64,000 nt of DNA. It comes from Streptomyces sp. NBC_01275. Its GTDB lineage: Bacteria; Actinomycetota; Actinomycetes; Streptomycetales; Streptomycetaceae. The stretch lies in the NCBI RefSeq assembly GCF_026340655.1, contig NZ_JAPEOZ010000001.1, positions 496,001 through 560,000 on the forward strand, given 5' to 3'. Every line of letters starts with the position of its first letter. Position 1 is the stretch's first letter. Positions 1,384 through 9,534 of this stretch are shown one piece after another. The position numbers were made by a program, and so were the translations under genes. The notes under the pieces are model-generated. The model did not search any database and had not been told where the DNA came from. It saw nothing but the letters and a program-made list of their open reading frames with translations.

Positions 1384-2937
1384 CTACGGCACGAAGATGT
1401 CCACGGACGGCCTCAGGGCGGCTGCCGAGGCCAGCGCCTGGTGGACGGGGTGGGCGTCGAAGGCCTTCAACAGGGCACTGTCCGACGGGAGTTCGGCTGC
1501 GGGGTAGGCGATCTGCTCGTAGGCGGCCTGGAAACGCGGGCCCCAGCGGCGGGCGCCGAGGCGGGCCGTACGGGAGCAGTTGTCGACCATGTGGGCGACG
1601 TCCCGGGCGTGCATGTACGGCAGCAGGGAGTCGACCGCCTCGATGACGGACTCGTTGACGATCTCCGACCAGGGGTGGCCGCGCTCGGCGAACTCGTCGA
1701 TCTGCGCGGTCATCGTGGCGACGAACACCCCGGCGGTGAACGGCTCGACGGGCAGGGCGCGTTCACCGCGGCGGGCGTGCACCCGCGGCGCCACCGCCCA
1801 CATGGGGGAACCGCCGACCCTGCTCATCGGGCGCTCGGCGAGCCGCCGTTCGGCCAGCACGACGCTGCGCAGCTCGGTGCCGTCGGCGACCTCGTCGTAG
1901 ATCTCCGCGACGATCTCCCGGGCGGGTCCGTACGTCGCCGTGTACGCGCGGTCGAAGACGTCCCGGCCGTCCGGGTCGAGGCCCTCGCGCACCGCCCGCA
2001 GTCCGGCGCGCGAGATGGTGCGGGCGATCGGGCCGGTGACGTTCTCGCAGGACCTCTCGTACGCGGTGACCTCGTCGTCCCCGGCCAGCCGGAAGCGCGC
2101 GTACAGGCTCTCGACGACGGCGTGGACGCCGCCGAGCAGGACGGCGCGCTCGCCGACGACGTCCGAGCGGTACTCGCCCTCCAGAGTGGTGCGGAAGGTG
2201 TACGGCGAGCCCAGCGCGACCGACCAGCCGAGCGCGAGGTCGGCGGCCCGGCCGTCGGGGTCGGCGTGGACGGCGAAACTGCTGTTGATCCCGGCGCCGT
2301 TGGTCTCGGCGCCCTGCTCGTAGAGGCGGCGCACGGAGTCGCCCATGCCCTTGGGGCAGACGGCGATCACCCCGTGGCCCGCCGGGAACTCGCCGCCGAT
2401 CTCCCGCAGATGGCCGAGCAGGAAGCCGTGGGACAGTCCGATGACGGCCCCGGGTTTCAACGCGGCGAAGATCTCCTCGTGGTGGGCGGCGAGCGCGGCG
2501 TCCGCGATGAGCAGGATCAGCAGGTCGCTGTCGGCGGCGACGGCGAGCCAGTCGCCCAGCGTGCCGTCCTCCTCGGTGAAGCCGTGCGCGCGGGCGTCGG
2601 CGGCCGAACGGGAACCGGGGCGCAGTCCCACGGCCACCCGGATGTCCGTGCCGGCCAGGGAGTCCCGCAGGTTGCGGGCCTGGGCGCGGCCCTGCGGGCC
2701 CCAGCCGAGCACGCCGACGCGGCGGACGCCGACGAAGGCCTTCGGCAGCAGCGGGAAGAGATGGCGTCCGCCGCGCAGGACGGTCTCGGCGCCGCCGGGC
2801 ACGTCCATCGTCTCGAGGGGGAACACGTGGGAGGTGAAAGTCGAGGTCGGGGTCGGGGTCGGAGTCGGGGTCGGAGTCGGGGTCGAGGTCGAGGTCGAGG
2901 TCGAGGTCGTCGAAGTGAGGTTCGAGGTCGCGGTCAT
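1384..2937 (-). CDS. ilvC: ketol-acid reductoisomerase, plant-type class II (long form)
   Basis: This 517-residue enzyme converts 2-acetolactate or 2-aceto-2-hydroxybutyrate, with NADPH and Mg2+, to the dihydroxy acids of valine and isoleucine synthesis. Residues from about 51 on follow the plant enzyme, not the ~330-residue class I enzyme usual in actinobacteria: RGGRHLFPLLP, the Rossmann GWGPQG at ~78-83, GLSHGFLLGH with the catalytic His, VCPKGMG with the catalytic Lys, INSSFAVH, the metal ligands in SDVVGERA and in NESVIEAVDS, and MVDNCSRTAR. Every catalytic and metal residue I can recall is present. Residues ~8-36 are a Ser/Thr/Pro micro-repeat. ATG 2937 is preceded by TACAAC and so may be leaderless; GTG 2826, just after the repeat, is an alternative start. 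It is divergent from an IlvY-like regulator. Confidence 0.9.
   Translation of the reverse strand: MTATSNLTSTTSTSTSTSTPTPTPTPTPTPTSTFTSHVFPLETMDVPGGAETVLRGGRHLFPLLPKAFVGVRRVGVLGWGPQGRAQARNLRDSLAGTDIRVAVGLRPGSRSAADARAHGFTEEDGTLGDWLAVAADSDLLILLIADAALAAHHEEIFAALKPGAVIGLSHGFLLGHLREIGGEFPAGHGVIAVCPKGMGDSVRRLYEQGAETNGAGINSSFAVHADPDGRAADLALGWSVALGSPYTFRTTLEGEYRSDVVGERAVLLGGVHAVVESLYARFRLAGDDEVTAYERSCENVTGPIARTISRAGLRAVREGLDPDGRDVFDRAYTATYGPAREIVAEIYDEVADGTELRSVVLAERRLAERPMSRVGGSPMWAVAPRVHARRGERALPVEPFTAGVFVATMTAQIDEFAERGHPWSEIVNESVIEAVDSLLPYMHARDVAHMVDNCSRTARLGARRWGPRFQAAYEQIAYPAAELPSDSALLKAFDAHPVHQALASAAALRPSVDIFVP
2840..2910. repeat. hexanucleotide micro-repeat coding the KARI N-terminus
   Basis: A run of GTCGAG, GTCGGG and GTCGGA units lies inside the 5' end of the KARI gene. 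On the coding strand it reads as alternating Thr-Ser then Thr-Pro dipeptides. It lies upstream of the first residues that align with plant KARI, so copy-number change would alter only a disordered leader and keep the frame in steps of six bases. Confidence 0.9.
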
Positions 2938-2963
2938 GGTCGAGTTGTAGGGTCCGGTCGAAT

Positions 2964-2980
2964 GTTGCGGCAAGCGCAAC
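2964..2980. promoter_or_regulatory. LysR-type (IlvY) operator candidate between ilvY and ilvC
   Basis: A perfect inverted repeat GTTGCG-N5-CGCAAC lies in the 88-base divergent intergenic region, and a further GTTGC half-site is at 2995-2999. It contains the T-N11-A type spacing expected of LysR boxes. Read toward KARI, TTGCCG inside the repeat can act as a -35 with an 18-base spacer to TACAAC near 2943-2948. The placement fits activation of ilvC by a neighbouring IlvY, as in enterobacteria. Confidence 0.55.
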
Positions 2981-3025
2981 TTGTGCAGCGATGCGTTGCG
3001 GGAACTGAAAGGCAGAGGTGAGGGC

Positions 3026-3880
3026 GTGCGGGACGACCATCGGGAGCTGCGACTGTTCCTGCATCTGGCGCAGACGCTGAACTTCGGCCGGACCAGCCTG
3101 GACTGTCACGTCAGTCCGGCGACGCTGACGCGGACCGTGCAGCGACTGGAGGCCGATCTCGGGCACCGGCTGTTCGACCGGGGGCCGCGCGGAGTGGCGC
3201 TGACGGCGGAAGGACATCGGTTCCGTGAATACGCCGTGCATGCACTGGAGTTGTGGCGCTCCTACCGGGAGGAGCACCCCGATCCGGCCGAACTCACCGG
3301 CCGCCTCACGGTGTTCGCCACGGTGACCGCCTGCCAGGCCCTGCTGCCCGACCTGTTGGCTCCGCTGCGGTCCGCCCACCCGCAGGTGCGGCTCGATCTG
3401 CGGACCGGGGACGCGGCGGCGGCGCTGGCCCGGCTCGACGAGGGCGAGGTCGACGCGGCGGTCGCGGGGATCCCCGCGCGGCTGCCGGAGTCGCTGGTCA
3501 GCCGGACCGTCGCGGTCACGGAGCTGGTGTTCGTCACCGCGCGGGACCGGCCCGACGTCCGGCTCGACGGGCCGTTCGTGCTGCCGCACCGCGGCCTGGT
3601 GCGGGAGGCGGCCGACCGCTGGCTGCGGGCGCACGGCAACACGGCCGAGGCGGTCTGCGAACCGGACGGCCACGAGGGGCTGTTGGCGCTGGTCGCCCTC
3701 GGCTGCGGCACCGGCGTGGTGCCGAGACTCGTCCTGGAGCACAGCGCGGTGCGCGACCGGCTGACGGTGGTGCCCGCCGACCCCGCGCCCGAGCCGTTGC
3801 CGATCGGCCTGTGCGTCCGACGGGCGGACCTGCGACGCCCGGCGGTGGCGGCTCTGTGGAGCCTGACGAGTCCGCCGTAA
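3026..3880 (+). CDS. ilvY: LysR-family regulator, IlvY-like
   Basis: The protein is 284 residues from GTG 3026, which follows a good AGAGGTGAGG ribosome site. It has an N-terminal winged helix (residues ~5-62) and a C-terminal effector domain. The match to enterobacterial IlvY is detailed: FLHLAQTLNFGR, VSPATLTR, VQRLEADLGHRLF, then FATVTACQALLPDL, LRTGDAAAAL, AAVAGIPARLP and ALGCGTGVVPRLVLE parallel the E. coli protein position by position. IlvY senses acetolactate/acetohydroxybutyrate and activates ilvC, and here it is likewise divergent from a class II KARI. This is an unusual regulator for an actinomycete, where branched-chain synthesis is not normally IlvY-controlled as far as I know. 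Confidence 0.82.
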   Translation: MRDDHRELRLFLHLAQTLNFGRTSLDCHVSPATLTRTVQRLEADLGHRLFDRGPRGVALTAEGHRFREYAVHALELWRSYREEHPDPAELTGRLTVFATVTACQALLPDLLAPLRSAHPQVRLDLRTGDAAAALARLDEGEVDAAVAGIPARLPESLVSRTVAVTELVFVTARDRPDVRLDGPFVLPHRGLVREAADRWLRAHGNTAEAVCEPDGHEGLLALVALGCGTGVVPRLVLEHSAVRDRLTVVPADPAPEPLPIGLCVRRADLRRPAVAALWSLTSPP

Positions 3881-3922: not shown

Positions 3923-4507
3923 ATGGCCAGGACCAAGGAGTTCGACCCGGACACAGCACTTCGCGCGGCCCTGGAGCTGTTCTGGCGGCGCGGCTACGAG
4001 GCCACGTCGATGGCGGACCTCGTCGAGCACCTCGGCATCGGGCGCGCCAGCATCTACGCGACCTTCGGCAACAAGCACGACCTCTACCTCAAGGCGCTGG
4101 ACCGGTACGGGGAGACCTACGATCCGGTCCTCCTGCACGAGCTGTCCCAGCCGGGGCCCGCACTGCCCGGGGTGCGCGCGGTGGTGCGGCGGTTCGCGGC
4201 CACGGCCACCGACGACACCCGGCGCACCCTGGGCTGTCTCGTCACCAACACGGCGGCGGAGCTGGCCGCGCACGACCCCTCCGCGGCCCGCCGCGTCGAG
4301 CTGAGCTGGGAGCACCTGGAGACGCTGCTGCACTCGTCGCTGGTGCGCGCGCAGGCGCAGGGCGAACTGCCGGCCGAGCGTGATCCGCGGGCGCTGGCCC
4401 GCCTGCTGCTGGTCCTGCTCCAGGGGGTGCGGGTGGTCGGCAAGGCCTCCCCGGACCCCGCGCGGGTACGGGACGCGGCGGAACAGGCGCTGACCCTGCT
4501 CGACTGA
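3923..4507 (+). CDS. TetR/AcrR-family transcriptional regulator
   Basis: This 194-residue protein has a typical TetR helix-turn-helix at residues ~10-55 (ALELFWRRGYEATSMADLVEHLGIGRASIYATFGNK in order) and a C-terminal ligand domain containing the CLVTNTAAELA segment common in the subgroup that controls adjacent oxidoreductases. It is followed on the same strand by an SDR gene, and a shared inverted motif in both promoters indicates that it represses itself and that gene. Confidence 0.9.
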   Translation: MARTKEFDPDTALRAALELFWRRGYEATSMADLVEHLGIGRASIYATFGNKHDLYLKALDRYGETYDPVLLHELSQPGPALPGVRAVVRRFAATATDDTRRTLGCLVTNTAAELAAHDPSAARRVELSWEHLETLLHSSLVRAQAQGELPAERDPRALARLLLVLLQGVRVVGKASPDPARVRDAAEQALTLLD

Positions 4508-4549
4508 CCCGTCTCCGCGACGCGGTGGGTCTGTTCATCTGACTCGAAT

Positions 4550-4564
4550 CTGGAACGACCGGTC
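4550..4564. promoter_or_regulatory. TetR operator copy upstream of the SDR gene
   Basis: CTGGAACGACCGGTC is the reverse complement of the tetR promoter site at 3888-3902 except for the two central bases (CTGGAACG-NN-CGGTC). It lies 14 bases before the SDR start, over the region that holds its ribosome site, so binding could block initiation or elongation. Confidence 0.6.
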
Positions 4565-4578
4565 CAGAAAGGACTGAC

Positions 4579-5346
4579 ATGCCCCACTCTCGTTTCTCGG
4601 GACGCACCGCCCTGATCACCGGCGGCGGCTCCGGCATAGGACGGGCCCTCGCCCTCGCGTTCGCCGCCGAGGGCGCCCGGGTGGTCGTCGCCGGACGCAC
4701 CCGCGCGGCGCTCGACGAGACGGTCGCGCTCGTCGAGGCGGCCGGCGGGACCGCGGTCGCCCACGCGGCCGACGTGGCAGTGGCCTCCGACGTGGACGGG
4801 CTCATCCGGGCGACCCTCGACCGCTTCGGCTCGCTCGACGTCGCCGTCAACAACGCGGGCGTCTTCCGGGGCGGCCTGCCGGTCGCCGACCTCTCCGAGG
4901 ACGACTGGCGGACGGTCCTCGACACCAACCTCACGGGCGTGTTCCTCGCCCTCGGGGCCGAGATACGGCAGATGCGCACCCAGCCGAACGGCGGCGCGAT
5001 CGTCAACGTGTCGTCCAACCTCGGCGTGCACCGGCAGGTGCCGGGCACCACCGCGTACGCCGCGAGCAAGGCCGCCGTCACCGCCCTCACGCGCGGGGCC
5101 GCCCTCGAACACATCGGGGACGGCGTCCGCGTCAACGCCGTCAGCCCCGGCCCGTCCGACACGTCCATGTCGCTGCGGCCCGGCGAGTCCGAGGCCGAGC
5201 GTGCCGTACGGATGAAGGAGCAGTCGCCGCTGGGCCGGGTCTCGTCGACGGACGAGGTGGCGCGGGCGGTGCTGTATCTGGCGTCCGACGACGCGGCGTC
5301 CGTCGTCGGCGCCGACCTGGTGATCGACGGCGGGGCCACCCTGTAG
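4579..5346 (+). CDS. short-chain dehydrogenase/reductase
   Basis: A 255-residue classical SDR with the cofactor motif TGGGSGIG (residues ~13-20), NNAG near 92-95, a catalytic Ser in NVSSNLG, and YAASK as the catalytic Tyr-x-x-x-Lys. The C-terminal VVGADLVIDGGATL is typical of glucose-1-dehydrogenase/3-oxoacyl-ACP reductase-like members. AAAGGA lies six bases before the ATG. Its substrate is unknown, but control by the upstream TetR suggests a role in response to a small hydrophobic compound. Confidence 0.88.
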   Translation: MPHSRFSGRTALITGGGSGIGRALALAFAAEGARVVVAGRTRAALDETVALVEAAGGTAVAHAADVAVASDVDGLIRATLDRFGSLDVAVNNAGVFRGGLPVADLSEDDWRTVLDTNLTGVFLALGAEIRQMRTQPNGGAIVNVSSNLGVHRQVPGTTAYAASKAAVTALTRGAALEHIGDGVRVNAVSPGPSDTSMSLRPGESEAERAVRMKEQSPLGRVSSTDEVARAVLYLASDDAASVVGADLVIDGGATL

Positions 5347-7535: not shown

Positions 7536-8684
7536 ATGGACGACCGTATGACGACGCCCTGGGGCGAGCCCGCCCTGGCCCGCTACCCCGAGGATCCGCG
7601 CGACACGCTGCGTGCCTGGGACGCCTCCGACGCGTATCTGCTCCGGCACCTCGCGGAGCGGGACGTCCCCCTCACCGGCGCGGTCGTGGTGCTCGGCGAC
7701 CGCTGGGGCGCGCTGGTCACGGCTCTCGCCGCGCACCGGCCGACGCAGATCACCGACTCCTGGCTGGGACAGGAGGCGACCCGGGCGAACCTCGCCCGCA
7801 ACGGCGTGGAACCCGGTTCCGTCCGGTTGCTCACCACCCAGGATCCGGCGCCCGAGCGGATCGACGTGCTGCTGGTGCGGGTGCCGAAGAGCCTCGCGCT
7901 GCTGGAGGACCAGCTGCTGCGGCTGGCGCCCGCCGTGCACGAGGGCACGGTCGTCGTCGGCGCCGGCATGGTGAAGGAGATCCACACCTCCACACTGCGC
8001 CTGTTCGAGCGGATCCTGGGCCCGACCAGGACCTCCCTCGCCGAGCAGAAGGCCCGGCTGATCTTCTGCACCCCGGATCCGTCACAGGCGCGCCCCGGCA
8101 ATCCGTGGCCGCACTCCTACGCGCTGCCCGACGACGTCGGCACGCTCTCCGGTCGTACGGTCGTCAACCACGCCGGTGTGTTCTGCGCCGAGCGGCTCGA
8201 CGTCGGCACCCGGTTCTTCCTCCGGCAGCTGCCGGACACGCGCGGGGTTGGCCGGGTCGTCGACCTGGGGTGCGGGAACGGGGTCGTCGGCACGGCGGTG
8301 GCGCTGGCCGACCCGGCGGCCGAGGTGCTGTTCACCGACGAGTCGTTCCAGGCGGTGGCGTCGGCGGAGGCGACGTACAAGGCGAACGGGGTGCCGGGGC
8401 ACGCCGAGTTCCGGGTCGGGGACGGGCTGGCGGGAGTGCCGGGCGGGAGTGTGGACGTGGTGCTGAACAATCCGCCGTTCCACTCCCACCAGGCCACGAC
8501 GGACGCGACGGCGTGGCGGATGTTCACGGATGCGCGGCGCGCGCTGCGGCCGGGCGGCGAGCTGTGGGTCGTCGGCAATAGGCACCTGGGGTACCACGTG
8601 AAGCTGAAGCGGCTGTTCGGCAACAGTGAACTGGTTGCGGGGGACCCGAAGTTCGTGGTGCTGAGGGCCGTCAAGCGCGGGTGA
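7536..8684 (+). CDS. rlmG: 23S rRNA (guanine-N2)-methyltransferase RlmG-like
   Basis: The 382-residue protein has two methyltransferase-like halves, as in the RsmC/RlmG group. The N-terminal half is degenerate. The C-terminal half carries the SAM site VVDLGCGNGVVG (~residue 240) and the catalytic NNPPFH motif (~310) of N2-guanine base methyltransferases. E. coli RlmG (378 residues) modifies G1835 of 23S rRNA. TAGCCT lies ten bases before the ATG and no ribosome site is visible, so a leaderless start at 7536 is likely. The 3' end overlaps the convergent aldolase gene by 14 bases. Confidence 0.8.
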   Translation: MDDRMTTPWGEPALARYPEDPRDTLRAWDASDAYLLRHLAERDVPLTGAVVVLGDRWGALVTALAAHRPTQITDSWLGQEATRANLARNGVEPGSVRLLTTQDPAPERIDVLLVRVPKSLALLEDQLLRLAPAVHEGTVVVGAGMVKEIHTSTLRLFERILGPTRTSLAEQKARLIFCTPDPSQARPGNPWPHSYALPDDVGTLSGRTVVNHAGVFCAERLDVGTRFFLRQLPDTRGVGRVVDLGCGNGVVGTAVALADPAAEVLFTDESFQAVASAEATYKANGVPGHAEFRVGDGLAGVPGGSVDVVLNNPPFHSHQATTDATAWRMFTDARRALRPGGELWVVGNRHLGYHVKLKRLFGNSELVAGDPKFVVLRAVKRG

Positions 8685-9534
8685 GGAGGCGGACCGTCCG
8701 CTCGACGGTGGCCGCCATCGCCGCCCGGCCGGCGGTCAGGTAGGCGCGGGCGTCGACGGCCTCGGGGTGGTCGGCGAGGAAGTCCCTGATCGCGCCGGTC
8801 ATGGCTTGGTTCAGGGCGGTCCCGATGTTGACCTTGGCGATGCCGCCCGCGACGGCCGCGATCAGCTCGCCGTCCGGAACGCCCGAGGAGCCGTGCAGGA
8901 CGAGGGGCACGTCGAGGACGGCGGCGAGCCGTTCGATCAGGTCGTGGTCGAGGGCGGCGGTGCGGGTGGTCATCGCGTGGACGCTGCCGACGGCGACGGC
9001 CAGGGCGTCCACGCCGGATTCGGCGACGAAGGCACGGGCCTCGGCCGGGTCGGTGCGGGCACCGGGCGCATGGGCTCCCTTACCGCCGATCTCCCCCAAC
9101 TCGCCCTCGATCCAGAGCCCTTGGGAGTGCGCCCAGTCGACGGCCGCGCGGGTCGCGGCAAGGTTCTCGGCGTACGGAAGGCGGGAGGCGTCGTACATCA
9201 CGGAACCGAAGCCGGCGTCGGCCGCCTGACGGAGGAGCAGGTCGCTCTGGACGTGGTCCAGGTGCAACGCGACGGGTACGGCGGCCCGTTCGGCGGCGGC
9301 CACGGCGGCGCGGGCGAGCGGGAGCAGCCGTCCCTGGCGGAACTTCACGGCGTTCTCGCTGACTTGGAGGACGACGGGCGCTCCGGCGGCCTCGGCGCCG
9401 GCGATCACGGCCTCGACGTGTTCGAGCGTGATGACGTTGAAGGCGGTGACGGCGGTGACGGCGGTGTGGGCCGTGCGGACCCTGCGGACCGTGCGGGCGC
9501 GGGTGACCAGTTCGCCGGTGGTCGTGAGGGGCAT
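8671..9534 (-). CDS. class II fructose/tagatose-bisphosphate aldolase family protein
   Basis: This 287-residue protein is a class II (zinc) aldolase of the GatY/KbaY/Fba type: TAFNVITLEHVEAVIAGAE at the start, ALHLDHVQS with zinc-ligand His, IEGELGEIGGKG, VGSVHA, LVLHGSSGVP and GGIAKVNIGTAL follow the family order. It should cleave a ketose (bis)phosphate to dihydroxyacetone phosphate and an aldehyde. Its ATG lies one base after the stop of the SIS-domain gene, so the two are co-translated, as in amino-sugar/galactosamine catabolic operons. Confidence 0.85.
   Translation of the reverse strand: MPLTTTGELVTRARTVRRVRTAHTAVTAVTAFNVITLEHVEAVIAGAEAAGAPVVLQVSENAVKFRQGRLLPLARAAVAAAERAAVPVALHLDHVQSDLLLRQAADAGFGSVMYDASRLPYAENLAATRAAVDWAHSQGLWIEGELGEIGGKGAHAPGARTDPAEARAFVAESGVDALAVAVGSVHAMTTRTAALDHDLIERLAAVLDVPLVLHGSSGVPDGELIAAVAGGIAKVNIGTALNQAMTGAIRDFLADHPEAVDARAYLTAGRAAMAATVERTVRLLTRA

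Follow-up and report, generated by a model that had tools for sequence, protein, structure and literature searches.

In Escherichia coli, the ketol-acid reductoisomerase (KARI) gene ilvC is transcribed divergently from ilvY, which encodes a LysR-type regulator whose inducers are reported to be acetolactate or acetohydroxybutyrate (PMC5002191; PMC6483228). Counted from the start of ilvC, IlvY binding sites are described at -34 and -65, and a third one that overlaps them at -43 (PMC5002191). Class II KARI, in its turn, is usually described as mostly a plant enzyme (PMC8985424). Here we analyze a related gene pair in a 64,000-nucleotide stretch of Streptomyces sp. NBC_01275 (contig NZ_JAPEOZ010000001.1, positions 496,001 to 560,000; the whole stretch is called the window below), in which a plant-type class II KARI gene stands back to back with a gene for an IlvY-type regulator. 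The pair is a variant of the known KARI-IlvY module, and we consider it likely from the sequence that both genes together make up a second KARI unit, self-contained and inducible by substrate, in addition to the class I IlvC that the same genome encodes. The features that carry this reading are as follows.

1384..2937, minus strand: plant-type class II KARI (the second KARI), 517 aa, ATG at 2937, stop at 1384
2942..2951, minus strand: invariant box GAGTTGTAGG (KARI strand CCTACAACTC), putative -10 element TACAAC of a leaderless KARI transcript
2965..2979, no strand assigned: putative KARI-proximal IlvY-like operator, TTGCGGCAAGCGCAA, a perfect TTGC-N7-GCAA palindrome
2996..3010, no strand assigned: putative LysR-proximal IlvY-like operator, imperfect, TTGCGGGAACTGAAA
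3026..3880, plus strand: IlvY-type LysR transcriptional regulator, 284 aa, GTG start

The 517-aa KARI has both the KARI_N and the KARI_C domain of Pfam above cut-off, and a second, weaker KARI_C stretch (23 bits) lies in the same reading frame. Over its full length it matches the structures of the rice (3fr7, E 8.2e-171) and spinach (1qmg, E 1.2e-167) enzymes; the E. coli-type class II enzyme 1yrl matches at E 1.4e-15. Identity to rice KARI is 55%, with a gap in the alignment where a 6-residue insert of the rice and spinach proteins is missing from that of the window. A size in the range of about 490 aa, a duplicated C-terminal domain and a full-length match to plant rather than E. coli-type enzymes thus place the protein among the plant-type class II KARIs. 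H170, K196, D259, E263 and S455 align with the same letters in rice and E. coli, and glutamates 429 and 433 of the NESVIE motif are identical to rice, the NESVIE columns being out of register in the alignment to E. coli. In KARI structures, these residues belong to the catalytic Lys/His and Mg2+-binding Asp/Glu set, which is accordingly kept. The E. coli cofactor residues R76, S78 and Q110 align with other letters in the window KARI, as they do in rice. An earlier note, made from the letters of this DNA alone, had called the enzyme plant-type with its catalytic and metal residues intact, and both calls were borne out: the four motifs it quoted are present, and the positions checked match rice.

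It is possible in principle that the enzyme now reduces a different substrate, such as ketopantoate or pyrroline-5-carboxylate, and that the IlvY sites are left over from its past. KARIs are promiscuous, Streptomyces class I enzymes being reported to reduce pyrroline-5-carboxylate weakly (PMC4353338), and the KARI gene evolves somewhat faster than its neighbors. However, the catalytic positions checked are kept, as are the operator and regulator in all 11 Streptomyces loci, and we regard such a shift as unlikely, although the least so of the four alternatives weighed here.

The regulator passes the cut-off of PRK11716, the NCBIfam model for IlvY (259.3 bits; cut-off 246), and in a tree with eight other LysR rows it forms one clade with E. 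coli IlvY (support 99/98, with long branches present), in keeping with the IlvY-like assignment of the earlier note. Across 18 IlvY rows, 41 alignment columns are invariant. The same note had further seen in it a proteobacterial-like regulator with a foreign target, a view that is not supported, as the window IlvY is nearer to the IlvYs of two Myxococcales metagenome-assembled genomes (MAGs; 49% and 44% identity), which are themselves partners of plant-type KARI, than to E. coli IlvY (36%). The LysR tree, which held no IlvY from an actinobacterial genus other than Streptomyces and has long branches, likewise groups the Streptomyces IlvYs with those of Myxococcales and Pseudomonadales (99/93) and not with E. 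coli. Five cyanobacterial loci (L032, L074, L081, L082 and L102) also carry a plant-type KARI with a divergent LysR, at 26-27% identity; the four of these LysRs placed in the tree (all but that of L081) lie outside the IlvY clade, and they may represent another KARI-linked regulator.

The 88 bp that separate the KARI ATG (2937) from the LysR GTG (3026) hold the two putative tandem TTGC-type operators, between genes that diverge as ilvY and ilvC do. The centers of the sites are 31 bp apart and lie 35 and 66 bases upstream of the KARI ATG, matching the -34 and -65 positions in E. coli. In all 11 Streptomyces loci, the best-scoring site pair has this 31-bp spacing, with 15 of 16 letters, and in 10 of them 35 bases separate the center of the first site from the nearest ATG on the KARI strand (36 in L112). 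None of 2000 single-letter shuffles of the window intergenic region reached the observed operator score. At 31 bp, a score of 14 was found in E. coli (reached by 0 of 2000 shuffles), L024 (1 of 2000) and L035 (unshuffled), and of 13 in L029 (3 of 2000) and L083 (4 of 2000), the L loci here being KARI-IlvY pairs from outside Streptomyces that are described below. No other spacing outscores the 31-bp pair in L035 and L024, while in L029 and L083 it is one of several candidates; L039 has its site pair at 32 bp, and its 31-bp score is less unusual (35 of 2000).

The exact tandem pattern, which combines the perfect palindrome with the TTGC of the second site, has a single mismatch-free occurrence in the genome. 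When up to one mismatch was allowed, nine places were found, two of which are the window region on its two strands, compared to 18 for a reversed control. Since the control gives more places, none of the others was taken as a real operator, and a wider IlvY regulon was rejected. Between the palindrome and the ATG, the GAGTTGTAGG box is invariant in all 11 aligned Streptomyces loci; as a -10 element, it would put the start of transcription at the KARI ATG itself. The ATG beside the box opens an intact KARI frame in 9 of the 10 loci found by a pattern search, the window included. At locus L108 (genome G022), the KARI frame shifts about 10 codons past the conserved start, and this copy may be inactive or mis-sequenced. 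One further feature of the window lies inside the KARI gene.

2840..2909, minus strand: GTCGGG hexamer repeat, 11.7 copies (Tandem Repeats Finder)

In the NBC_01275 strain, this repeat encodes a Ser/Thr/Pro-rich N-terminal stretch of KARI. It is absent from the nine other KARI N-termini compared, among which L109 has a different, shorter repeat.

The earlier note had also asked whether the genome holds a class I ilvC next to ilvBN. It does: ilvB, ilvN and a 345-aa class I ilvC lie side by side elsewhere in the genome, making the window KARI a second one. Above cut-off, the genome has one gene for the acetohydroxy acid synthase (AHAS) large subunit and one ilvD gene, encoding dihydroxy-acid dehydratase; ten weaker AHAS large-subunit homologs and three weaker ilvD homologs were also found, and none of these places, strong or weak, lies within the 64-kb window. 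Judged by these cut-offs, KARI is the only step present twice, and the second branched-chain module that the earlier note had envisaged is not borne out, nor is the role in a specialized metabolite that it had thought possible. The Pfam search of the ten flanking open reading frames (ORFs) returned two TetR regulators, a short-chain dehydrogenase/reductase (SDR), a ROK protein, a 2-oxoglutarate-Fe(II) oxygenase, an MTS-type methyltransferase, a 3-hydroxyisobutyrate-dehydrogenase-like protein, an ABC/FtsX-like protein, a pyridoxal phosphate (PLP) enzyme and one product without a family; no biosynthetic cluster was seen there, or in the rest of the window as judged by gene calls only. The 3-hydroxyisobutyrate-dehydrogenase-like gene (L021:7843-8949, reaching the left end of the window) is also present in some loci that lack the pair and is probably unrelated to it.

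These surroundings bear on two alternatives. A KARI paralog that supplies precursors has been described in the valanimycin producer S. viridifaciens, in an ilvBNCE operon beside a biosynthetic cluster (PMC4353338). Unlike that gene, the window KARI is neither in nor beside such a cluster, none being seen among the ten flanking ORFs, and its outer flanks are the same in all 19 genomes without the pair that were fetched. A precursor-supply role is therefore very unlikely, even though in one streptomycete, G091, a related IlvY gene is transcribed divergently from a methyltransferase-like gene, and ORFs in the vicinity look cluster-like by eye. Alternatively, the enzyme could be an inhibitor-tolerant isozyme that protects the cell from natural KARI inhibitors. 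Known KARI inhibitors hit plant enzymes too, no inhibitor cluster is present among the ten ORFs and the operator points to substrate, all of which makes this the least probable of the alternatives, despite the fact that resistance isozymes would be expected to look like this, as an additional target enzyme from another class encoded at an accessory locus.

Among 121 sampled Streptomyces genomes, 11 have a full-length match to the plant-type KARI, and all 11 also have a class I enzyme; G104 contains KARI fragments and G040 a short KARI tail. IlvY is above cut-off in 12 of the 121, namely the 11 carriers and G091, and in each of the 11 a divergent LysR gene lies beside KARI. In 10 of the 11 carriers, the genome of the window included, the pair occupies one chromosomal site, between a PLP-enzyme and TetR block and a ROK gene; in L112 it lies elsewhere. 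In the window, a TetR and an SDR gene (3923-5346, plus strand) separate LysR from ROK; they were not found at this position in the other carriers and are perhaps a strain-specific insertion. Decayed copies of the pair mark the same site in G104, G040 and G416 (L177), and the flanks adjoin without the pair in all 19 loci fetched from genomes that lack it (19 of approximately 103 such genomes with the ROK gene, picked from those most alike). On a 31-row ROK tree, presence of the pair is scattered, with 9 changes compared to a shuffled mean of 9.8. This pattern fits either an old arrival with several later losses or recombination across the flanks that exchanged the pair between genomes, and the unit in Streptomyces looks like an old accessory element, held mostly at one chromosomal site and repeatedly lost.

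The decayed copies and the scattered, unclustered presence are also what a fading relic with little present function would leave behind. Selection argues otherwise: the median ratio of nonsynonymous to synonymous substitution (dN/dS) in carriers is 0.242 for KARI, well under 1, compared to 0.165 for LysR and 0.141 for the ROK neighbor (55 non-independent pairs), and the operator, its spacing and the promoter-like box are conserved over divergent lineages. We consider a relic less probable still than a precursor role.

Two genomes of the genus depart from the usual arrangement. Streptomyces sp. MNU76 (G416) carries an IlvY-less plant-type KARI (L101) together with the broken pair at the usual site (L177), where LysR is cut down to a stub. 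At locus L157 of G091 (C1:9379000-9396000), a LysR gene (7944-8837, minus strand) with 57% identity to the window IlvY faces the methyltransferase-like ORF mentioned above. As judged by eye, this locus retains the CCTACAA box and the tandem operator, whose first site differs by one letter, and ORFs nearby resemble a type III polyketide synthase, a prenyltransferase and a reductase. It seems that the IlvY promoter of G091 has been re-used for another gene.

Beyond the genus, a phylum-wide draw gave 2 of 296 genomes with a plant-type KARI match at E 1e-40, one of them being that of the window. A scan of genome contigs from 84,980 species found 353 relatives. The 80 most similar to rice were retained, and these best 80 of 353 include Chloroflexota, Latescibacterota, Alpha- and Gammaproteobacteria, Gemmatimonadota, Spirochaetota, Myxococcota, cyanobacteria, Kutzneria and two Streptomyces. 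In 24 genomes checked, no other KARI was found in 14, and the remaining 10 also had a short KARI. Divergent KARI-IlvY pairs outside Streptomyces were found at five loci (L029, L035, L083, L039 and L024) from Myxococcales, Pseudomonadales, Latescibacterota and Spirochaetales, all in genomes among those 14; as these five are draft MAGs, absence of another KARI is not certain in them. Two further Streptomyces loci (L098 and L101) and one of Kutzneria (L100) carry a different plant-type KARI, 57-58% identical to that of the window, in genomes that also have class I; the stretches fetched for these three contain no IlvY match.

The KARI tree comprised 52 of the 92 extracted KARIs and rice, including 9 of the 11 Streptomyces pair loci; L051 and L060 had been dropped from the first tree because too few of their columns were filled. 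The KARIs of the Streptomyces pairs are monophyletic (100/100), and their stem is long. One branch of the best tree, weakly supported (67/46), has 14 plant-type KARI rows from Actinomycetota on the same side, with L115, L080, L098, L100 and L101 joining the clade of the Streptomyces pairs; L067, also labeled Actinomycetota, falls elsewhere. The earlier note had held that a broad, vertically inherited clade with its own LysR would speak against transfer, and such a clade is present within Streptomyces, whereas beyond the genus the grouping is weak (67/46). Transfer was one of the possibilities that the note had suggested; a recent transfer is not supported given the single conserved site in 10 of 11 carriers, taken with this weak Actinomycetota grouping, and neither is a plant donor. 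The window-type KARI does not join rice in the best tree, where long branches are present, and forcing a Streptomyces-rice clade cost 20.3 log units, a marginal difference (p = 0.059 in the approximately unbiased test, p-AU). Forced union of the KARIs with those of Myxococcales/Dehalococcoidia was 14.7 log units worse and equally marginal (p-AU 0.056), although the LysR tree, unlike the KARI tree, leans toward a myxococcal donor. Grouping with the other Streptomyces and Kutzneria plant-type KARIs is compatible with the data (p-AU 0.27). Beyond Streptomyces, the origin may be an old actinobacterial lineage or an old transfer.

The second, substrate-inducible KARI unit that we favor would work as follows. 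In the promoter region between the genes, IlvY would bind both TTGC-type sites with their 31-bp spacing and, when acetohydroxy acids (acetolactate or acetohydroxybutyrate) accumulate, would activate transcription of the plant-type KARI gene, whose mRNA is probably leaderless and starts at ATG 2937. The enzyme would then consume the inducer by the normal Mg2+- and NADPH-dependent isomeroreductase reaction, acting alongside the class I IlvC of the ilvBNC operon. We infer the inducer, the activation and the catalytic activity; retention of operator and regulator in all 11 loci would tie expression to acetohydroxy acids, provided that sensing is as in E. coli IlvY.

Such an enzyme could be useful in a specific way. 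Streptomyces class I KARIs are reported to have acetolactate Km values of 0.8-12 mM (PMC4353338), compared to approximately 11 micromolar for plant KARIs, and the Km for Mg2+ is given as 5 micromolar for plant KARI and 420-900 for bacteria and fungi (PMC5940873). More speculatively, the plant-type KARI may be the high-affinity isozyme that complements a poor class I enzyme, and could pull the pathway at low substrate or Mg2+, or catch acetolactate before it is lost. The fuller picture, in which two KARIs of opposite design coexist, one being class I with low affinity and the other an accessory plant-type enzyme with high affinity and a low Mg2+ need that is switched on by its substrate via IlvY and sites reversed relative to E. 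coli, with the regulatory part re-used in G091, is one that we put forward tentatively and think somewhat doubtful as a whole.

Several observations weigh against the proposed unit. First, at the promoter, E. coli, L029 and L083 have other spacings that score equal to or above 31 bp, and no promoter was detected in the KARI-LysR intergenic region by a strict sigma-70 scan. The perfect palindrome is KARI-proximal in the window and ilvY-proximal in E. coli, and with the order swapped the on/off logic may differ. Second, with regard to the enzyme, the equivalog cut-off of the TIGR00465 ilvC model was missed (169.8 bits; cut-off 226.15), plant KARIs themselves not having been scored on this model. 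The kinetic argument is borrowed from plant enzymes, and kinetics for a bacterial plant-type KARI were not found in the literature covered. Third, G091 has IlvY without a plant-type KARI. Finally, KARI is constrained, but less than its LysR and ROK neighbors. Broken copies in G104, G040 and G416, together with a frameshift close to the start in G022, show that it is dispensable.

If the substrate-inducible unit is real, approximately one in ten streptomycetes would carry a second KARI of this kind, with relevance to the precursors of valine- and isoleucine-derived antibiotics and to the engineering of branched-chain products. The locus would also offer a small and testable system in which isozymes from two classes are controlled separately, and a bacterial enzyme close to a herbicide target. 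More broadly, plant-type KARI spans many bacterial phyla, is the sole KARI found in 14 of 24 genomes and at times has its own IlvY circuit. For class II, 1,682 sequences have been compiled in a data set (PMC9632902), and the class II KARI recorded for M. tuberculosis is E. coli-type, with 86% identity to 1YRL (PMC8985424). Within the literature covered, to which subscription papers and preprints did not belong, we found no wording such as plant-like or plant-type KARI and no title or abstract start on this pair; the main text of the paper on Streptomyces KARI paralogs contains no "class II", "IlvY" or "LysR" (PMC4353338).

In summary, the pair resembles several known systems without coinciding with any. 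It shares with E. coli ilvY-ilvC the divergent IlvY-type LysR and KARI genes and a 31-bp spacing of sites that lie near -35 and -65, substrate induction being known in E. coli (PMC5002191; PMC6483228), but its enzyme is plant-type and a second KARI, and its palindrome order is reversed. Like the chloroplast KARIs of rice (3fr7) and spinach (1qmg/1yve), the enzyme is a full-length class II KARI with the same catalytic letters where checked, yet it lacks their 6-residue insert and stands apart from rice in the best tree. The ilvC1/ilvC2 paralogs also provide a second KARI in streptomycetes (PMC4353338), but those duplicates are class I by the table labels of another source (PMC5940873), and the S. 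coelicolor pair is reported to be 97% identical (PMC4353338). The same divergent plant-type KARI-IlvY arrangement is found in the five MAG loci, where it provides the sole KARI found in a draft genome, whereas in Streptomyces it provides the second.

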